From contig NZ_AOMC01000152.1 in assembly GCF_000336695.1 (NCBI RefSeq), forward strand, positions 80,538-119,952: a stretch of 39,415 nucleotides of DNA, given 5' to 3'. This document shows positions 9,049 to 15,669 of this stretch, piece by piece. A program made the translations under genes and the position numbers. The notes beneath the pieces were generated by a model that made no database searches, was not told where the DNA came from, and worked only from the letters and a program-made list of their open reading frames with translations. Numbering within the stretch: the first letter of the stretch is position 1; the number at the start of each line of letters is the position of its first letter. The stretch is from Halococcus morrhuae DSM 1307. GTDB lineage: Archaea; Halobacteriota; Halobacteria; Halobacteriales; Halococcaceae.

Positions 9049-9443
9049 TACACCATCGCCACGCCGTCGCCGTGTTCGTAGTGGTCCGGGAGGAAACGAT
9101 CGACTCGGAAGCCGTGGCGCTCGTAAAACCGTCGCGCGCGCTCGTCGTCCGCGCGTGCGGTGAGCCGACAGTCGTCGCCGTCGTCGAGGATGGCCTTCAG
9201 CAGCGCCGAGCCGCGGCCCGCGTTGCGGTGGCCGGGCGCGACGGCGAGTTCGGCAAGATGTGTCGGATCGCTGCTGACCGCGAGCGCGTAGCCGACTGCC
9301 GTGTGACCCGAAACGAGCACGCGTCCCGGCCCATTGATCGCCGTTTCGAGCAATTCGGGCCAGGTCGATGCGAGCGATGCCGATTGGATGGCGAGCAGGC
9401 GGGGGCGGTCGGCGGGCGTCGCCGGCCTGATCCGGTGGCTCAT
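9027..9443 (-). CDS. GNAT-family N-acetyltransferase
   Basis: A 138-residue single-domain GNAT protein that would transfer an acetyl group from acetyl-CoA. The acetyl-CoA pyrophosphate-binding motif is GHRNAGRGSALL (R/QxxGxG/A), preceded by the strand LAELAVAPG and followed by ARRFYERHGF of motif B. It looks like the RimI-type subgroup, but the substrate cannot be read from sequence. The ATG overlaps the stop of the upstream DUF92 gene as ATGA (4 nt), so the two are translationally coupled. Its C-terminal 22 nt overlap the end of dnaG on the other strand. Confidence 0.88.
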   Translation of the reverse strand: MSHRIRPATPADRPRLLAIQSASLASTWPELLETAINGPGRVLVSGHTAVGYALAVSSDPTHLAELAVAPGHRNAGRGSALLKAILDDGDDCRLTARADDERARRFYERHGFRVDRFLPDHYEHGDGVAMVYQSDDRS

Positions 9444-10804
9444 AGCGCCGCGAGACCGGTGGCCGCGGCGAGCGCTGCACAGACCAGCGCGGCCGCGAGC
9501 GTGGCGAGGAAGTTCACCGTCTGATTGCCGATACGGCGATCGGCGAACGCGAGACCGGCGAGCGCCCCGGCAAACAGCTCGCCGACTGCTCGATTCTCAA
9601 AGCGTGCACCGAGCAGGCTGTCGACGACCATGCCGGCGACGCCCGCGAGCGTGATCGCGATCGCGCCCGCCAGCGAGAACGGGAGGAAGAGGAGGCCGAG
9701 CACGGCGATGAGCAGCGCGCCGAACAGGCCGGCGACGGCACCCTGCCACGTCACGCCGCCGTCGGTGCCCGGTGGGACTGGTTCGAGCGTCGTGATGAGC
9801 CGCGGCGTGTCGAACAGCCCGCCGATCTCGCTCGACAGCGTGTCGGCCATCGCTGCGGCGAGCGAGCCGGCGAAGGCGAACACGAAGGGGCTGTCCGTGA
9901 GCGGCAGCATCGGGCTCGCGGCGTAGCCCAAGACGGCACCGAGCGCGACCGCGGAGTTCGCGAGCACGTTGGCGCTGCCGCGCGCGCCGTCGTTGCCCTC
10001 GGCGAGCCCGCGTTTTCGTTTCCGATCGTAGCGGAACTTGCCGGCGAGCCCGCCGCCGCCGAAGAAGGTGATGAGCAGCGCGAACCAGCCGAACCCGCCG
10101 AGAACGACCATCAGCAGTCCCGCGAGCACGCCCGTCACCATCCCGGTGATCGACGCGGTGTCGAGCGCGTAGGCGAGCGCACCGAAGCCAGCGGTGACGA
10201 GGAGTGCGAGCGCGATACCGACCGGGGCGATCGTCGGTTCGAGCGCGGCGAGCAGCCAGAGCAGCAAGCCCATCGAGAACAGCACGAGCGGGTCGTCGCG
10301 GACGAACAGCGCGAGGCGAACCAGCGCGCCGAGCAACGCTGCGCTCGCGGCGAAAAAGACCGCGAGTGCGGGCGTCGGTGCCGGGGCGGCGAGTCCGACG
10401 ACGAGCTGGCCGAGCACGCCGGCGAACGTCCCGCCGACGGTGAACGCGACCGTGGCGGCGACGGGTTCGTGTCGGCGCTGGCGGACCGCCGCCTCGGCGA
10501 GGTTGCCACCGGAGAGCACGAGGACGCTTGCGACGAAGACGAAAACCGGCATGCCGAACAGGGGGACGAACAGCGCGAGGCCGGCCGCCGCAAGCGCGAA
10601 GCCCGCCAGCCCGTAGAGCGCGCGCTCCTCGTGATCGCCGGGCCGGGCGAACAGTTCGAAGGCCGGCCCGTCATCGACGACGAACGCCGCGAGCGCGGCG
10701 ACGACCACGAAGGGAGCGGCGGCGGCCGGTCCCAACAGCGGGGCGGCGAGCGAGAGCGCGCCGACGAGCGCGAACGCGCCCGCCCGCCGGAGAGGCCACG
10801 TCAC
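9440..10804 (-). CDS. DUF92 (TMEM19-like) integral membrane protein
   Basis: A 454-residue membrane protein with about twelve hydrophobic segments. The DUF92 hallmarks are in the C-terminal half: a cytosolic GKFRYDRKRKRGLAEGNDG loop, AAAMADTLSSEIGGLF and GMVVDSLLGARFEN. DUF92 includes the plant phytyl-phosphate kinase VTE6, so a role in isoprenoid-alcohol phosphorylation is plausible, and two polyprenyl synthase genes lie just beyond. That link is inference. The start is GTG at 10804, supported by a TATA-like CTTAAC at 10829-10834, 27 nt upstream. The N-terminal 190 residues are a second hydrophobic region beyond the core DUF92 domain. Confidence 0.9.
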   Translation of the reverse strand: MTWPLRRAGAFALVGALSLAAPLLGPAAAAPFVVVAALAAFVVDDGPAFELFARPGDHEERALYGLAGFALAAAGLALFVPLFGMPVFVFVASVLVLSGGNLAEAAVRQRRHEPVAATVAFTVGGTFAGVLGQLVVGLAAPAPTPALAVFFAASAALLGALVRLALFVRDDPLVLFSMGLLLWLLAALEPTIAPVGIALALLVTAGFGALAYALDTASITGMVTGVLAGLLMVVLGGFGWFALLITFFGGGGLAGKFRYDRKRKRGLAEGNDGARGSANVLANSAVALGAVLGYAASPMLPLTDSPFVFAFAGSLAAAMADTLSSEIGGLFDTPRLITTLEPVPPGTDGGVTWQGAVAGLFGALLIAVLGLLFLPFSLAGAIAITLAGVAGMVVDSLLGARFENRAVGELFAGALAGLAFADRRIGNQTVNFLATLAAALVCAALAAATGLAAL

Positions 10805-11142: not shown

Positions 11143-11751
11143 GTGGGACTGTACGACCGCTATCTCGCCACTCGTATTCGCCGCACCGAGGCCCCGCTGC
11201 CGGGCTGTGTCGCGGTCGTCATCGCCGAGCGCGATCTGCTCGAAGACGGTGCCTATCGAACGGTCGAGGAGTTCTTCGAGTGGGCCTTCGAGTACGACGC
11301 CGACTGCGTGCTGGTCTACGTGAGCGTGCTCGATACGGGCGCGGTGCCGGCCATCCGCCGGGTGTTCGAGCGCTGTGACGCCCCGCGCGAGCTCGCCGTT
11401 CGCGGCCCGGATGACGACGAGCGCGCCGACGCACCGATCAACGTGAGCATCGGTCTCGGCGGCAAACACGAGTTCGCGGCGGCCGTTCGTGGCGCGGCCA
11501 CCGCCGTCGAGGCCGGTACGCTCGCACCCGAGGAGATCGACGCCGAGACGATCGAGGAGCGACTCGTCTTTCCGACCGCCCCCGATCTCGTCATCAAGAC
11601 TGGTGCCGAACGGCTCTCGGACTTCATGATCTGGCAGTCGGTCTACTCCGAACTGTACTTCACCGACGTGAACTGGCGGGATTTCCGCAAACGCGAGTAT
11701 CTCCGCGCGCTGCGGGATTATCAGAACCGACAGCGCCGCTACGGGCAGTAA
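11143..11751 (+). CDS. Degenerate cis-prenyltransferase homolog (putative NgBR-like subunit)
   Basis: A 202-residue relative of undecaprenyl diphosphate synthase. The C-terminal half aligns with the family (DLVIKTGAERLSDFMIWQ against DLIIRTGGDERTSNFLPW of the neighbour). The catalytic DGNRR loop is absent: the equivalent stretch reads VVIAERDLLEDG (residues 25-36). The protein ends in RRYGQ, giving an R-x-G motif at 199-201, as in the non-catalytic NgBR/Nus1 subunit of eukaryotic enzymes. The convergent uppS 20 nt away has the reverse pattern. A heteromeric enzyme making the dolichol or polyprenyl glycan carrier is therefore likely. The start is GTG at 11143; GTG 11119 is less likely. Confidence 0.85.
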   Translation: MGLYDRYLATRIRRTEAPLPGCVAVVIAERDLLEDGAYRTVEEFFEWAFEYDADCVLVYVSVLDTGAVPAIRRVFERCDAPRELAVRGPDDDERADAPINVSIGLGGKHEFAAAVRGAATAVEAGTLAPEEIDAETIEERLVFPTAPDLVIKTGAERLSDFMIWQSVYSELYFTDVNWRDFRKREYLRALRDYQNRQRRYGQ

Positions 11752-11771
11752 CTCGGATAGCTGTCGTTGAC

Positions 11772-12701
11772 TCAGTCGGCCGTTGTCGGTTCAGTCTCGT
11801 TCGTGTTGCTCTCGACACCGTCGAGTTCGCCGCGCGGGAGATACTCGCGAAAGCGCTCGACGATAGCGCGTGCCTCGTCGAGTTCCGCACCACCCACTGC
11901 ACGGACCAGTGCGAGCGCGCGGCGCGCGCGGGTGCGACGCCACGACTGTTCACGGGATTCGTAGGTGCGGATCGCGCGCAGAAAGTCCTTCTTCGCGAAG
12001 GCGGGCCAGTAGGGAGTGCAGAAGAAGACTGCCGCCTCGTTGCCGTTGGCGTGCCACGGCAGGAAGTTCGAGGTGCGCTCGTCCCCTCCCGTGCGGATGA
12101 TGAGGTCCACGTCGCGGGCAGGACCGGCGTAGAGGCGACGCTCGATCGTTTCGGCGTCGATGTCGGCTGGAGTAGTATCACCGGTTTCGACCGTGCGCGC
12201 GACGTCGCGGGCCGCGCTCAGCAGTTCGGCGCGGCCGCCGTAGGCGAGCGCGATGTTGAGCTGGAGCGCGTCGTAGTCGGCGGTCTTCGTCTCGGCGTAG
12301 TCGATGGCGTCGCGGAGATCGTCGGGCAGCCGGTCGGTCTCGCCGATGGCGCGGATCCGCACTTCGCGTTCGTGGACGCGCTCGGCGTCGGCGAACTCGC
12401 GGAGTTTCTCTTCGAGCAGCGAGAAGAGGTGGTCGCGCTCGTCGGCCGAGCGGTCGAAGTTCTCCGTCGAGAACGTGTAGAGGGTGAGCTCCTCGACGCC
12501 GATCTGTGCACACCAGTCGAGCACCGCCTCGGTGGTTTCGGCACCGGCACGGTGGCCGTCGGCGGCGTCCTGGCCGTGTTCGTTCGCGTAGCGTCGGTTG
12601 CCGTCCTGGATGACGGCGACGTGTGTGGGTGCGCCGTCGATCTCGCGTTCGAGAAGGCGCTCGTAGGCTCGATTCAGCAGGCTGTGCGTGCGCGAAGCCA
12701 T
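11772..12701 (-). CDS. uppS: cis-Prenyltransferase (polyprenyl diphosphate synthase), catalytic type
   Basis: This enzyme extends allylic diphosphates with isopentenyl diphosphate in cis, making the lipid carrier for N-glycosylation. It has 309 residues. The catalytic motif QDGNRRYAN is at 32-40 with Asp33, followed by TFSTENF (76-82), LNIALAYGGRAE and DLIIRTGGDERTSNFLPW. The frame opens at 12743, but MASRTHSLLNRAYERLLERE (ATG 12701) is preceded by a TATA-like box at 12726-12734, 28 nt upstream. The R-x-G motif that homodimeric bacterial enzymes carry near the C-terminus is not seen here (SREQSWRRTR instead). An acidic tail of about 50 residues follows. Confidence 0.93.
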   Translation of the reverse strand: MASRTHSLLNRAYERLLEREIDGAPTHVAVIQDGNRRYANEHGQDAADGHRAGAETTEAVLDWCAQIGVEELTLYTFSTENFDRSADERDHLFSLLEEKLREFADAERVHEREVRIRAIGETDRLPDDLRDAIDYAETKTADYDALQLNIALAYGGRAELLSAARDVARTVETGDTTPADIDAETIERRLYAGPARDVDLIIRTGGDERTSNFLPWHANGNEAAVFFCTPYWPAFAKKDFLRAIRTYESREQSWRRTRARRALALVRAVGGAELDEARAIVERFREYLPRGELDGVESNTNETEPTTAD

Positions 12702-13217: not shown

Positions 13218-13292
13218 ACGACAGACGACTTTTCGGCTCCTCGGCGCAGCGGCGACCGGGGAGCGTATCTTTATCGGGTGCGAGCGACGGGT

Positions 13293-13688
13293 ATGAGCGA
13301 GACGCTCGACGACGAGCTCAGGCGACGGACCGAAGCGCTGCTCGAACCCGGAGAGATCGAGTTACAGGGGCTGATCGTCCACACCGAGTACGATTCGAAC
13401 CAGGAGAGCATGCTCCACCGTGCGACCATCGAGGTCGGCAACACGATCGCCGCCCACGCCGAGGCCGACGACACCTACGTCTACTCCGGCACCGACGACC
13501 CCGATTTCGGCCTCAATCAGCATCAGGGACTCACCATCGAGAACGACGAGTTCGTCTGGGAGTGCCAGCAGCTCCTCCGCGAGGGAACCTACGACGTCGT
13601 GTTCTATTACGAGGCGAGCGCCGACCACGAGGCTATCGTCGACGATCTCCAGGCGGAGGGCTACACGGTAACCGGCGTTCCGGAGTAG
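13293..13688 (+). CDS. Haloarchaeal hypothetical protein (DUF5778-like)
   Basis: A 131-residue soluble acidic protein without recognisable catalytic motif. It resembles haloarchaeal DUF5778 proteins, recalled from memory only. Visible features are an N-terminal helix (DDELRRRTEALLEPGE), a beta-rich middle (ELQGLIVHTEYDSNQESM) and a final alpha/beta part (DVVFYYEASADHEAIVDDL). The ATG at 13293 is preferred to 13278 because a TATA-like TCTTTATC at 13267-13274 lies upstream at leaderless distance. It lies 36 nt ahead of ahbAB, which has its own TATA box, so a functional link to heme synthesis is not shown. Confidence 0.8.
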   Translation: MSETLDDELRRRTEALLEPGEIELQGLIVHTEYDSNQESMLHRATIEVGNTIAAHAEADDTYVYSGTDDPDFGLNQHQGLTIENDEFVWECQQLLREGTYDVVFYYEASADHEAIVDDLQAEGYTVTGVPE

Positions 13689-13694
13689 CGGGGC

Positions 13695-13700
13695 GTTTAT
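13695..13700 (+). promoter_or_regulatory. TATA box of ahbAB
   Basis: GTTTAT is centred 27 nt before the ATG at 13725, in the short gap after the DUF5778-like gene. It predicts a leaderless transcript for the heme block. Confidence 0.55.
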
Positions 13701-13724
13701 GGCCGCCGCGAGCCGAGAGTCGGT

Positions 13725-14855
13725 ATGACGAACGCGGACGCGCCGGTCGCGCTCAACGAGCGCGAGCGCGCCATCATCAACGCTTTCCAGGGGGGTTTTC
13801 CCGTCGTCGAACGCCCGTTCGAGCCGGCCGCACGCGCCCTCACCGAACGCGGCATTGACATTACTGCCGACGAACTGCGCGATGAAATCCGACGACTCGA
13901 CGAGGAGGGAACGCTCTCACGATTTGGCGCACTCATCGACGCCGAGGCGATCGGCGGGACGGCGACTCTGGTGGCGATGCACGCGCCCGAGGAGCGCTTC
14001 GACGAGATCGCCGAGCAGGTGAACGCCCACCGCGAGGTCGCGCACAACTACGAGCGCGAGCATCCCCATCTCAATATGTGGTTCGTCGTCTCGGTCGCCG
14101 GCGAGGCGCGAAGCACCTCGGATGCGAGCGGTGGAACCGCGAGCGAGAACGTCGAAGGGGTACTCACGGCCATCGAGAACGAGACCGGACAGGAGACCTA
14201 CAACCTCCCGAAACAGCGCGAGTTCCGCGTCGAGGCGAAGTTCCTGCTCGACGGGCCGATTTCGGATGGCGACCTCGATCTGTCGGAGCCCGGTCCCGAC
14301 GTCGAACCCAGTGGACGGGGATCGCTGACGCCGGCCGAGCGCGATCTCGTCATCGAACTTCAGGGCGGATTGCCGCTCACCGAGACACCCTACGCGGACG
14401 TCGCCGGCGCGATTGGCCAGGACGTCGAGTGGGTCGTCGAGACGATCAACCGGTTTCTCGCGGAGGGGAAACTCCGGCGCGTCGGCGTCGTGCCGAACCA
14501 CTACGCGCTCGGCTACACCGAGAACGGCATGACAGTCTGGGACGTGCCCGACGAACTCATCTCGGAGGTGGGACCGGCGATCGCCGAACTGGAGTTCGTC
14601 ACTCACTGTTACGAGCGCCCGCGCCACGAGGGCGTCTGGCCGTACGACTTCTTCGCGATGACGCACGGCCGCTCCGAAGCGGAGAGCGAGCGCCGGATCG
14701 AGCAGGTGCGAGAACGGATGGGCGACTTCTTCGACGTCGGTGACGAGGACTGGGACACGCTGTTCTCGACGCGCATCCTGAAGAAGACGGGCATCAGGAT
14801 GGACGAGCGCGTCGCAGCGAACACCGACGCAGCATCCGAGGAAAACGAATTGTGA
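13725..14855 (+). CDS. Siroheme decarboxylase, fused AhbA-AhbB type
   Basis: Siroheme decarboxylase removes two acetate carboxyls from siroheme to give didecarboxysiroheme in the alternative heme pathway. The 376-residue protein contains two Lrp/AsnC-like halves. The first (about 8-170) has an HTH-like region, LSRFGALIDAEAIGG and the NYEREHPHLNMWFVV stretch. The second (about 195-350) starts LTPAERDLVIELQGGLPL and has LRRVGVVPNHYALGYTENGM and HCYERPRHEGVWPYDFFAM. The paired YER/HP and YERPRHEGVWPYD blocks typify AhbA/AhbB rather than true Lrp regulators. In many archaea the two are separate genes; here they are fused. sirC and hemA downstream support the role. Automated annotation could miscall it as a transcription regulator. 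Confidence 0.88.
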   Translation: MTNADAPVALNERERAIINAFQGGFPVVERPFEPAARALTERGIDITADELRDEIRRLDEEGTLSRFGALIDAEAIGGTATLVAMHAPEERFDEIAEQVNAHREVAHNYEREHPHLNMWFVVSVAGEARSTSDASGGTASENVEGVLTAIENETGQETYNLPKQREFRVEAKFLLDGPISDGDLDLSEPGPDVEPSGRGSLTPAERDLVIELQGGLPLTETPYADVAGAIGQDVEWVVETINRFLAEGKLRRVGVVPNHYALGYTENGMTVWDVPDELISEVGPAIAELEFVTHCYERPRHEGVWPYDFFAMTHGRSEAESERRIEQVRERMGDFFDVGDEDWDTLFSTRILKKTGIRMDERVAANTDAASEENEL

Positions 14856-14878
14856 ATCGTCACCGTCCAGTGTGCAGT

Positions 14879-14900
14879 GCGGTCGAAGTACTTCGACCGC
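14879..14900. repeat. 22-bp perfect palindrome after ahbAB
   Basis: GCGGTCGAAGTACTTCGACC plus GC reads the same on both strands and begins 23 nt after the ahbAB stop. It could be a hairpin stabilising or ending the transcript, or a dimeric protein-binding site. Confidence 0.6.
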
Positions 14901-14930
14901 GAGCGAGGTCCGACAGGACGAGCGAGCGGC

Positions 14931-14951
14931 CTTTTTTGGACCAGATTTTTT
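14931..14951 (+). terminator. Two T6 runs after ahbAB
   Basis: Two runs of six T (about 14932-14937 and 14946-14951) follow the ahbAB stop. Archaeal RNA polymerase terminates at such T-runs, so part of the transcription probably ends before sirC. Confidence 0.5.
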
Positions 14952-14998
14952 GGCGGGGTTTGAGGCGAGCGCAGCGAGTCGAGGACCCCGCCAAAAAA
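14946..14998. repeat. T/A-flanked inverted repeat, copy 1 (before sirC)
   Basis: Perfect 14-bp arms, TTTTTTGGCGGGGT at 14946-14959 and ACCCCGCCAAAAAA at 14985-14998, enclose a 25-nt loop rich in GCGAGCG. A related element lies in opposite orientation after hemA. The right arm ends 11 nt before the sirC start, so folding in RNA could affect sirC translation. Confidence 0.65.
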
Positions 14999-15009
14999 GG
15001 TGGGAGTGA

Positions 15010-15669
15010 ATGATTCCGCTGCTGCACGACTTCAGCGAGGAAGCAGTACTGATCTTCGGTGGCGGGCCGGTCGGCGCGCGCAAGGCCCGCCGGTTTGCGC
15101 GCGAGGCACGGGTCGTAGTGGTGAGTCCGGCGTTCGCCGACGCCGAGTTCGGCGATGCGGAGCGCGTGCGTGCCGCGCCATCGCCCGACGACGTCTCCGA
15201 GTGGTTCGAGCGGATCGAGCCGGCGCTCGCGGTCGCGGCGACGAGCGACGAAGCGGTGAACGACGCCGTGGCACGGGTCGCGCGTGAGCGCGGAACCCTC
15301 CGTAATCGGGCCGATCGAAGCGGTGGGGCCGGCGAGCGGAGCCATCTCGACGTGACCGTGCCGGCGACGGTCCGTGACGATCCCGTCCTCCTAGCGATCG
15401 CCACCGGAGGAACGAGTCCGGCGCTCAGTCGATATCTGCGCGAGCGCTTCGAGGAGGAGTTCGCCGACGCGGGCGCGATGGCGACGCTCACGGGGGAGCT
15501 ACGCGAGCAGTTGCGCGAGGACACGCCGGCCGAACAGCGCCGGGCGGCCGTCCGGGCGGTCGTGCGCTCCGATCGGGTTTGGAAGGCTTTAGGTGATGGA
15601 ACCCATACCCCGGATCAAGAGGCCCAATCGGTGATCAGCGACGTGCTCTCGGGGATGAACGAACGATGA
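15010..15669 (+). CDS. Precorrin-2 dehydrogenase (SirC/Met8-like)
   Basis: This enzyme oxidises precorrin-2 to sirohydrochlorin with NAD+, on the route to siroheme, and some relatives also insert iron. The 219-residue protein has an N-terminal Rossmann domain with GGGPVGARKARRF (residues 17-29), the AVAATSDEAVNDAV stretch, and a C-terminal helical domain with LLAIATGGTSPALSRYLRE. It ends in a 4-nt ATGA overlap with hemA, so translation is coupled. The ATG is close behind the inverted repeat at 14946-14998. I cannot tell from sequence whether the protein also has ferrochelatase activity. Confidence 0.9.
   Translation: MIPLLHDFSEEAVLIFGGGPVGARKARRFAREARVVVVSPAFADAEFGDAERVRAAPSPDDVSEWFERIEPALAVAATSDEAVNDAVARVARERGTLRNRADRSGGAGERSHLDVTVPATVRDDPVLLAIATGGTSPALSRYLRERFEEEFADAGAMATLTGELREQLREDTPAEQRRAAVRAVVRSDRVWKALGDGTHTPDQEAQSVISDVLSGMNER

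Follow-up and report, generated by a model that had tools for sequence, protein, structure and literature searches.

A convergent gene pair of Halococcus morrhuae predicted to encode a two-subunit cis-prenyltransferase

Results and discussion

Two cis-prenyltransferase genes lie tail to tail

The window, by which we mean the whole analysed stretch of 39,415 nucleotides, carries two convergent genes whose products belong to the cis-prenyltransferase (cPT) family (Table 1). Both proteins matched PF01255 above the Pfam cut-off: the catalytic protein with 236.9 bits over positions 1-216 of the profile, and the partner with 92.9 bits in a match limited to positions 115-219. These two are the only PF01255 genes in the Halococcus morrhuae genome. 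The conserved homology of the partner starts at VGLYDRYLA; it has neither DGN nor FSxEN, and of the motif set of the family only the C-terminal half remains. Past the catalytic gene, positions 13278..15669 of the window hold a DUF5778 gene, a siroheme-decarboxylase-like gene and an apparent siroheme synthase gene, the first two of which also recur near the catalytic gene in many haloarchaea.

Table 1 Genes and features at the cis-prenyltransferase locus (positions in the window)
Feature	Position	Strand	Remark
DUF92 integral membrane protein gene (PF01940)	9440..10804	-	divergent neighbour of the partner gene
Partner cis-prenyltransferase subunit, NgBR-like, predicted non-catalytic	11143..11751	+	202 aa from GTG at 11143
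Partner, alternative start	11119	+	in-frame GTG, giving 210 aa
AERDLL in the partner, at the place of catalytic QDGNRR	11224..11241	+	pyrophosphate-binding loop lost
RRYGQ in the partner	11734..11748	+	C-terminal RxG and exactly one residue, then stop
Gap separating the two convergent stop codons	11752..11771		20 nt
Catalytic cis-prenyltransferase subunit	12701..11772	-	309 aa from ATG at 12701
Catalytic subunit, alternative start	12743	-	in-frame GTG, giving 323 aa
DGNRR catalytic motif of the catalytic subunit	12605..12591	-	
C-terminal extension of the catalytic subunit, replacing the RxG tail	11772..11936	-	AlphaFold2 model, Foldseek

Catalytic motif and RxG tail are divided between two protein sets

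Homologues were gathered from whole genomes and a named-genome scan of the phylum Halobacteriota, and 118 catalytic and 135 partner sequences were aligned with E. coli UppS, which served as the anchor, and human DHDDS. The catalytic Asp was present in all 117 catalytic sequences having letters at that column. It also appeared in 9 of the 135 partners, where the alignment is uncertain, and none of the nine has the whole DGN, which was confined to the catalytic set. The catalytic sequences keep the D, G, N and next R of this motif, the S, N and R of FSxENxxR, and the R, R and S of the IPP site, apart from a single truncated row and single-residue changes at other motif positions. At the aligned position, the RxG glycine was found in 135/135 partners versus 0/118 catalytic sequences, and in every partner it stands exactly one residue before the stop. 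The partner tail follows the pattern R[RK][FY]G plus one residue, with the RxG Arg changed to K in one partner. Some catalytic C-terminal tails contain chance RxG strings, none of which aligns with the motif. DGN and RxG thus never occur on the same chain, unlike in the homodimeric UppS. A chance motif match was ruled out, as 253 homologous sequences conform to the split.

An earlier sequence-only reading of this DNA had ascribed DGNRR without a C-terminal RxG to the minus-strand protein and an RRYGQ end without DGNRR to the plus-strand protein, and had likened this to the division between DHDDS and NgBR. The full-length PF01255 match of the former and the family alignment bear out both descriptions, and the same two features are divided as in the human pair; the convergent orientation and the 20-nt gap were also as described.

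The catalytic C-termini vary. In the Archaeoglobi-like and Methanomicrobia-like families (labels inferred), the proteins extend only a few residues beyond the last core helix, and those of haloarchaea and others carry a helical extension. Highly diverged partners on very long branches (L194:425-1060 in G293 and L190:2-1039 in G218) still end in RERRYG plus one residue. A third, divergent cPT homologue, with DGHRRYA, was seen in the haloarchaeal genome G002 (L191:911-2779).

Co-occurrence and gene order

Both genes were present in 71/71 haloarchaeal genomes sampled and in 48/48 sampled genomes from other Halobacteriota classes, nearly always with one copy of each. When one family, recognised as Methanosarcinaceae from its named members, was sampled more widely, Pfam matches to both genes were found in 49 of 51, one of the two shortfalls being a contig end. 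Both genes were in readable form in 158 of 161 distinct genomes, and the remaining three are drafts, one of which has the missing gene truncated at a contig end. The draft G072 lacks the catalytic gene and the draft G304 the partner, and nothing was found to explain either; in G299, the catalytic gene is fragmented and interrupted by in-frame stops. Further apparent exceptions were assembly effects, namely a split between contigs (G236), a cut at a contig end (G205 and G290) and a run of N (G184). No single RxG-bearing homodimeric enzyme replacing the pair was found among the sampled Halobacteriota genomes.

The sequence-only reading had held that haloarchaea share the split and that the genes pair up, and had set independent phylogenetic profiles of the two genes against its proposal. 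The first statement is upheld by the haloarchaeal counts, the split being strict across Halobacteriota. Pairing was confirmed for most haloarchaea and failed in genus g7 (probably Halorubrum) and Methanosarcinaceae. Independent occurrence was ruled out by the phylum-wide profiles, in which the genes co-occur even where they lie far apart.

In three partly overlapping samples, every pair lying within 5 kb was convergent, with 52/52 in haloarchaea, 15/15 in the other classes and 49/49 at named loci, and convergence also holds for pairs that are several kilobases of other genes apart. The pair is unlinked, with both genes kept, in genus g7 and in families f12 (Methanosarcinaceae) and f14. Since the sampled genomes are related, the order counts are not independent events, and the conserved gene order looks like inherited synteny. 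The convergent 3' ends overlap in two families, by 27 nt (L138:1713-1739) and 20 nt (L144:1025-1044).

Additional copies were seen in a few genomes. G195 (L008/L071/L083) carries on contig C39 a second, co-directional catalytic/partner pair, possibly acquired by transfer, whose partner is 78% identical to that of the window. Two or three catalytic paralogues accompany one partner gene in six genomes (G061, G068, G105, G148, G226 and G255), resembling yeast, where Rer2 and Srt1 share Nus1. The extra catalytic copies that were read also lack the RxG tail.

These distributions bear on whether the genes encode one enzyme or two. If the enzymes were separate, the catalytic protein would act as a homodimer and the partner would be an unrelated regulator or a decaying paralogue, a reading that could draw on the unlinked genes of several lineages and on the departure of some cPTs from the RxG tail, yeast Nus1 having Asn in its place (PMC7839719). 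However, in a decaying paralogue RxG plus one residue would not persist in 135/135 sequences while its own DGN loop is lost, and both genes are retained phylum-wide even if unlinked. Separate enzymes are, in our estimation, very improbable. Against a single heteromeric enzyme count G072 and G304, each with one of the two genes, and the several genomes with extra catalytic copies and one partner.

Structure models

The AlphaFold2 model of the partner (pLDDT 86, pTM 0.82) kept the cPT fold and lacked the long helices between the second and following strands, where the substrate tunnel is built. In the model of the catalytic protein (pLDDT 81, pTM 0.77), the core elements are joined by a C-terminal helical extension, in which the last core helix is prolonged and short helices follow, at a position resembling that of the DHDDS helix-turn-helix. 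Foldseek aligned 310-318 columns of this model with DHDDS versus about 228 with UppS, the orientation of the extension in the superposition being uncertain (rmsd 11-13 Å). The two models would fit an active subunit and a helper in which the helices of the substrate tunnel have been lost. No hydrophobic N-terminal segment was seen by eye in the partner of 202-210 aa, which by this inspection may differ from NgBR in having no N-terminal transmembrane anchor.

A probable heteromeric enzyme with a tail predicted to act in trans

In human DHDDS/NgBR, the tail of NgBR reaches across the dimer interface, the backbone atoms of its RxG bind the phosphate of the IPP site, and the carboxylate of its terminal residue contacts two DHDDS arginines; given its helix-turn-helix, DHDDS could not supply such a tail itself (PMC7573591). 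The archaeal pair has the pieces of this complex in the same places, including the fixed distance of one residue from RxG to the C-terminus. As in human DHDDS/NgBR (6z1n, 6w2l), the motifs are divided between two chains, the partner ends in RxG plus one residue, and the catalytic chain has a helical C-terminal extension.

It is very probable that the two genes encode one heteromeric cis-prenyltransferase, which produces the polyprenyl diphosphate from which haloarchaeal dolichyl phosphate derives and whose active site is completed by the partner tail. The motif split and its strictness, the co-occurrence, synteny, fold and phylogeny on which this reading is based were all computed here. The minus-strand protein would bind the allylic primer and IPP and elongate the chain. 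The plus-strand protein would be a pseudo-enzyme that dimerises with it via the dimer face shared by cPTs, and in this physical complex the C-terminal Arg-Tyr-Gly-Gln tail would cross the interface to complete the active site of the catalytic subunit, as NgBR does for DHDDS. Either subunit alone would be inactive, and the product would serve as a long lipid carrier for protein glycosylation. The DHDDS/NgBR-like enzyme proposed in the sequence-only reading thus gains inferential support from the motif split, co-occurrence, predicted fold and phylogeny.

The partner could instead be a structural stabiliser or membrane adaptor whose tail stays outside the active site, and the disorder of the tail in the monomer model (pLDDT <50, residues 208-210) is what such a role might leave. 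That disorder is, however, expected when the other subunit is missing from the model, and the invariant Arg and Gly (apart from the single K) with their fixed C-terminal distance match the active-site role of NgBR (PMC7573591), so that we regard a purely structural role as very unlikely.

As a heteromeric enzyme, the pair would be the likely dolichol-chain synthase of haloarchaea, an obligate two-gene enzyme. Labelling either gene 'UppS' in databases would then misdirect pathway modelling, knock-outs and heterologous expression. Genetically tractable pairs from haloarchaea or methanogens could be simple models for the active site of human DHDDS/NgBR and for the disease position in its RxG.

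Relation to known enzymes

A heteromeric archaeal cPT is already known in kind. In PMC8131916, MM_0618/MM_1083 of Methanosarcina mazei are described as a heteromeric cPT with C45-50 products, probably for a glycosyl carrier (Emi et al. 2019, cited there), and M. mazei is reported to have three cPT genes. The sequence-only reading therefore rated the novelty too high; what is added here, namely the occurrence in haloarchaea and the deep synteny, is modest. The M. mazei enzyme is likewise archaeal and built from two cPT paralogues, and Methanosarcina genomes carry a catalytic subunit and an RxG partner homologous to the window pair. The Methanosarcina sequences, all from congeners of M. mazei, group with the others in the same two clades. 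The Methanosarcina-like genomes G294 and G301 have exactly three cPT genes, namely the catalytic gene, the RxG partner and an MM_0014-like third. Since Methanosarcina-like genomes carry the same two subunits, the window pair is, on homology, a haloarchaeal member of the M. mazei heteromeric kind, with putative orthology resting on the congeners. The two differ in that the genes are unlinked in Methanosarcinaceae and convergent neighbours in the window, and in the C-terminal extension of the haloarchaeal catalytic subunits, which differs from the M. mazei type. No paper on the haloarchaeal pair was found in the literature searched, most subscription journals lying outside its reach.

Archaeoglobus fulgidus, a member of the same phylum, reportedly has a heteromeric, two-subunit cis-prenyltransferase as well. 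Archaeoglobi-like genomes (f19, label inferred) hold the same pair, and their catalytic subunits lack the C-terminal extension, unlike that of the window. Bacterial UppS (E. coli, 1jp3) shares the fold, DGN and substrate residues with the catalytic subunit, and a YSELYFTD-like strand and RRFG with the partner; in the homodimeric UppS both features sit on one chain, whereas the archaeal pair has them split over two chains.

Age and origin of the split

In the phylogenetic tree, the catalytic and partner sequences formed two separate clades, with SH-aLRT values of 93 and 100, respectively. As the groupings inside each clade follow taxonomy, the tree indicates that catalytic and partner lines separated once and early, no later than the base of the phylum. 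DHDDS fell outside the catalytic clade, joining near the base on a long branch, and the tree therefore leaves an origin shared with the eukaryotic split neither shown nor excluded. The catalytic family profile matched human DHDDS best (236.3 bits, E 3e-69), practically on a par with E. coli UppS (236.0 bits). The partner profile matched bacterial UppS with E of about 1e-33 versus about 2e-10 for NUS1/NgBR; by this comparison the partner is not nearer kin to NUS1 than to UppS, and lies nearer to the latter.

The archaeal and the eukaryotic DHDDS/NgBR splits could be the same event, which would be compatible with the heteromeric enzyme proposed here and with the level scores of the catalytic profile. 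The far better match of the partner profile to bacterial UppS and the long-branched position of DHDDS speak against it, and the authors of the A. fulgidus study are said to have favoured convergence. We consider a common origin doubtful. With the phylum-wide set, it can be asked whether eukaryotes inherited their split or evolved it on their own.

The DUF92 neighbour

In 59 of the 80 named loci (L200-L279), the partner gene has a DUF92 (PF01940) gene as its head-to-head neighbour. We take its product to be a relative of dolichol and phytyl-phosphate kinases. An earlier comparative study connected the DUF92 family (arCOG02245) with uppS and with a step of isoprenoid metabolism that resembles a kinase reaction (PMC5898192), and the DUF92 gene is probably in the same pathway as the pair. 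It is conceivable, if unlikely, that DUF92, partner and catalytic subunit make up one ancient membrane module, in which DUF92 would hold the soluble partner at the membrane, as the transmembrane anchor does in NgBR, and process the polyprenyl product. BLAST found no DUF92 near the partner in Methanosarcina, Methanolobus and Methanohalophilus loci. The linkage of DUF92 and partner was seen also in Methanothrix loci without the catalytic gene in the fetched flank, and in some lineages this head-to-head linkage outlasts that between partner and catalytic gene.
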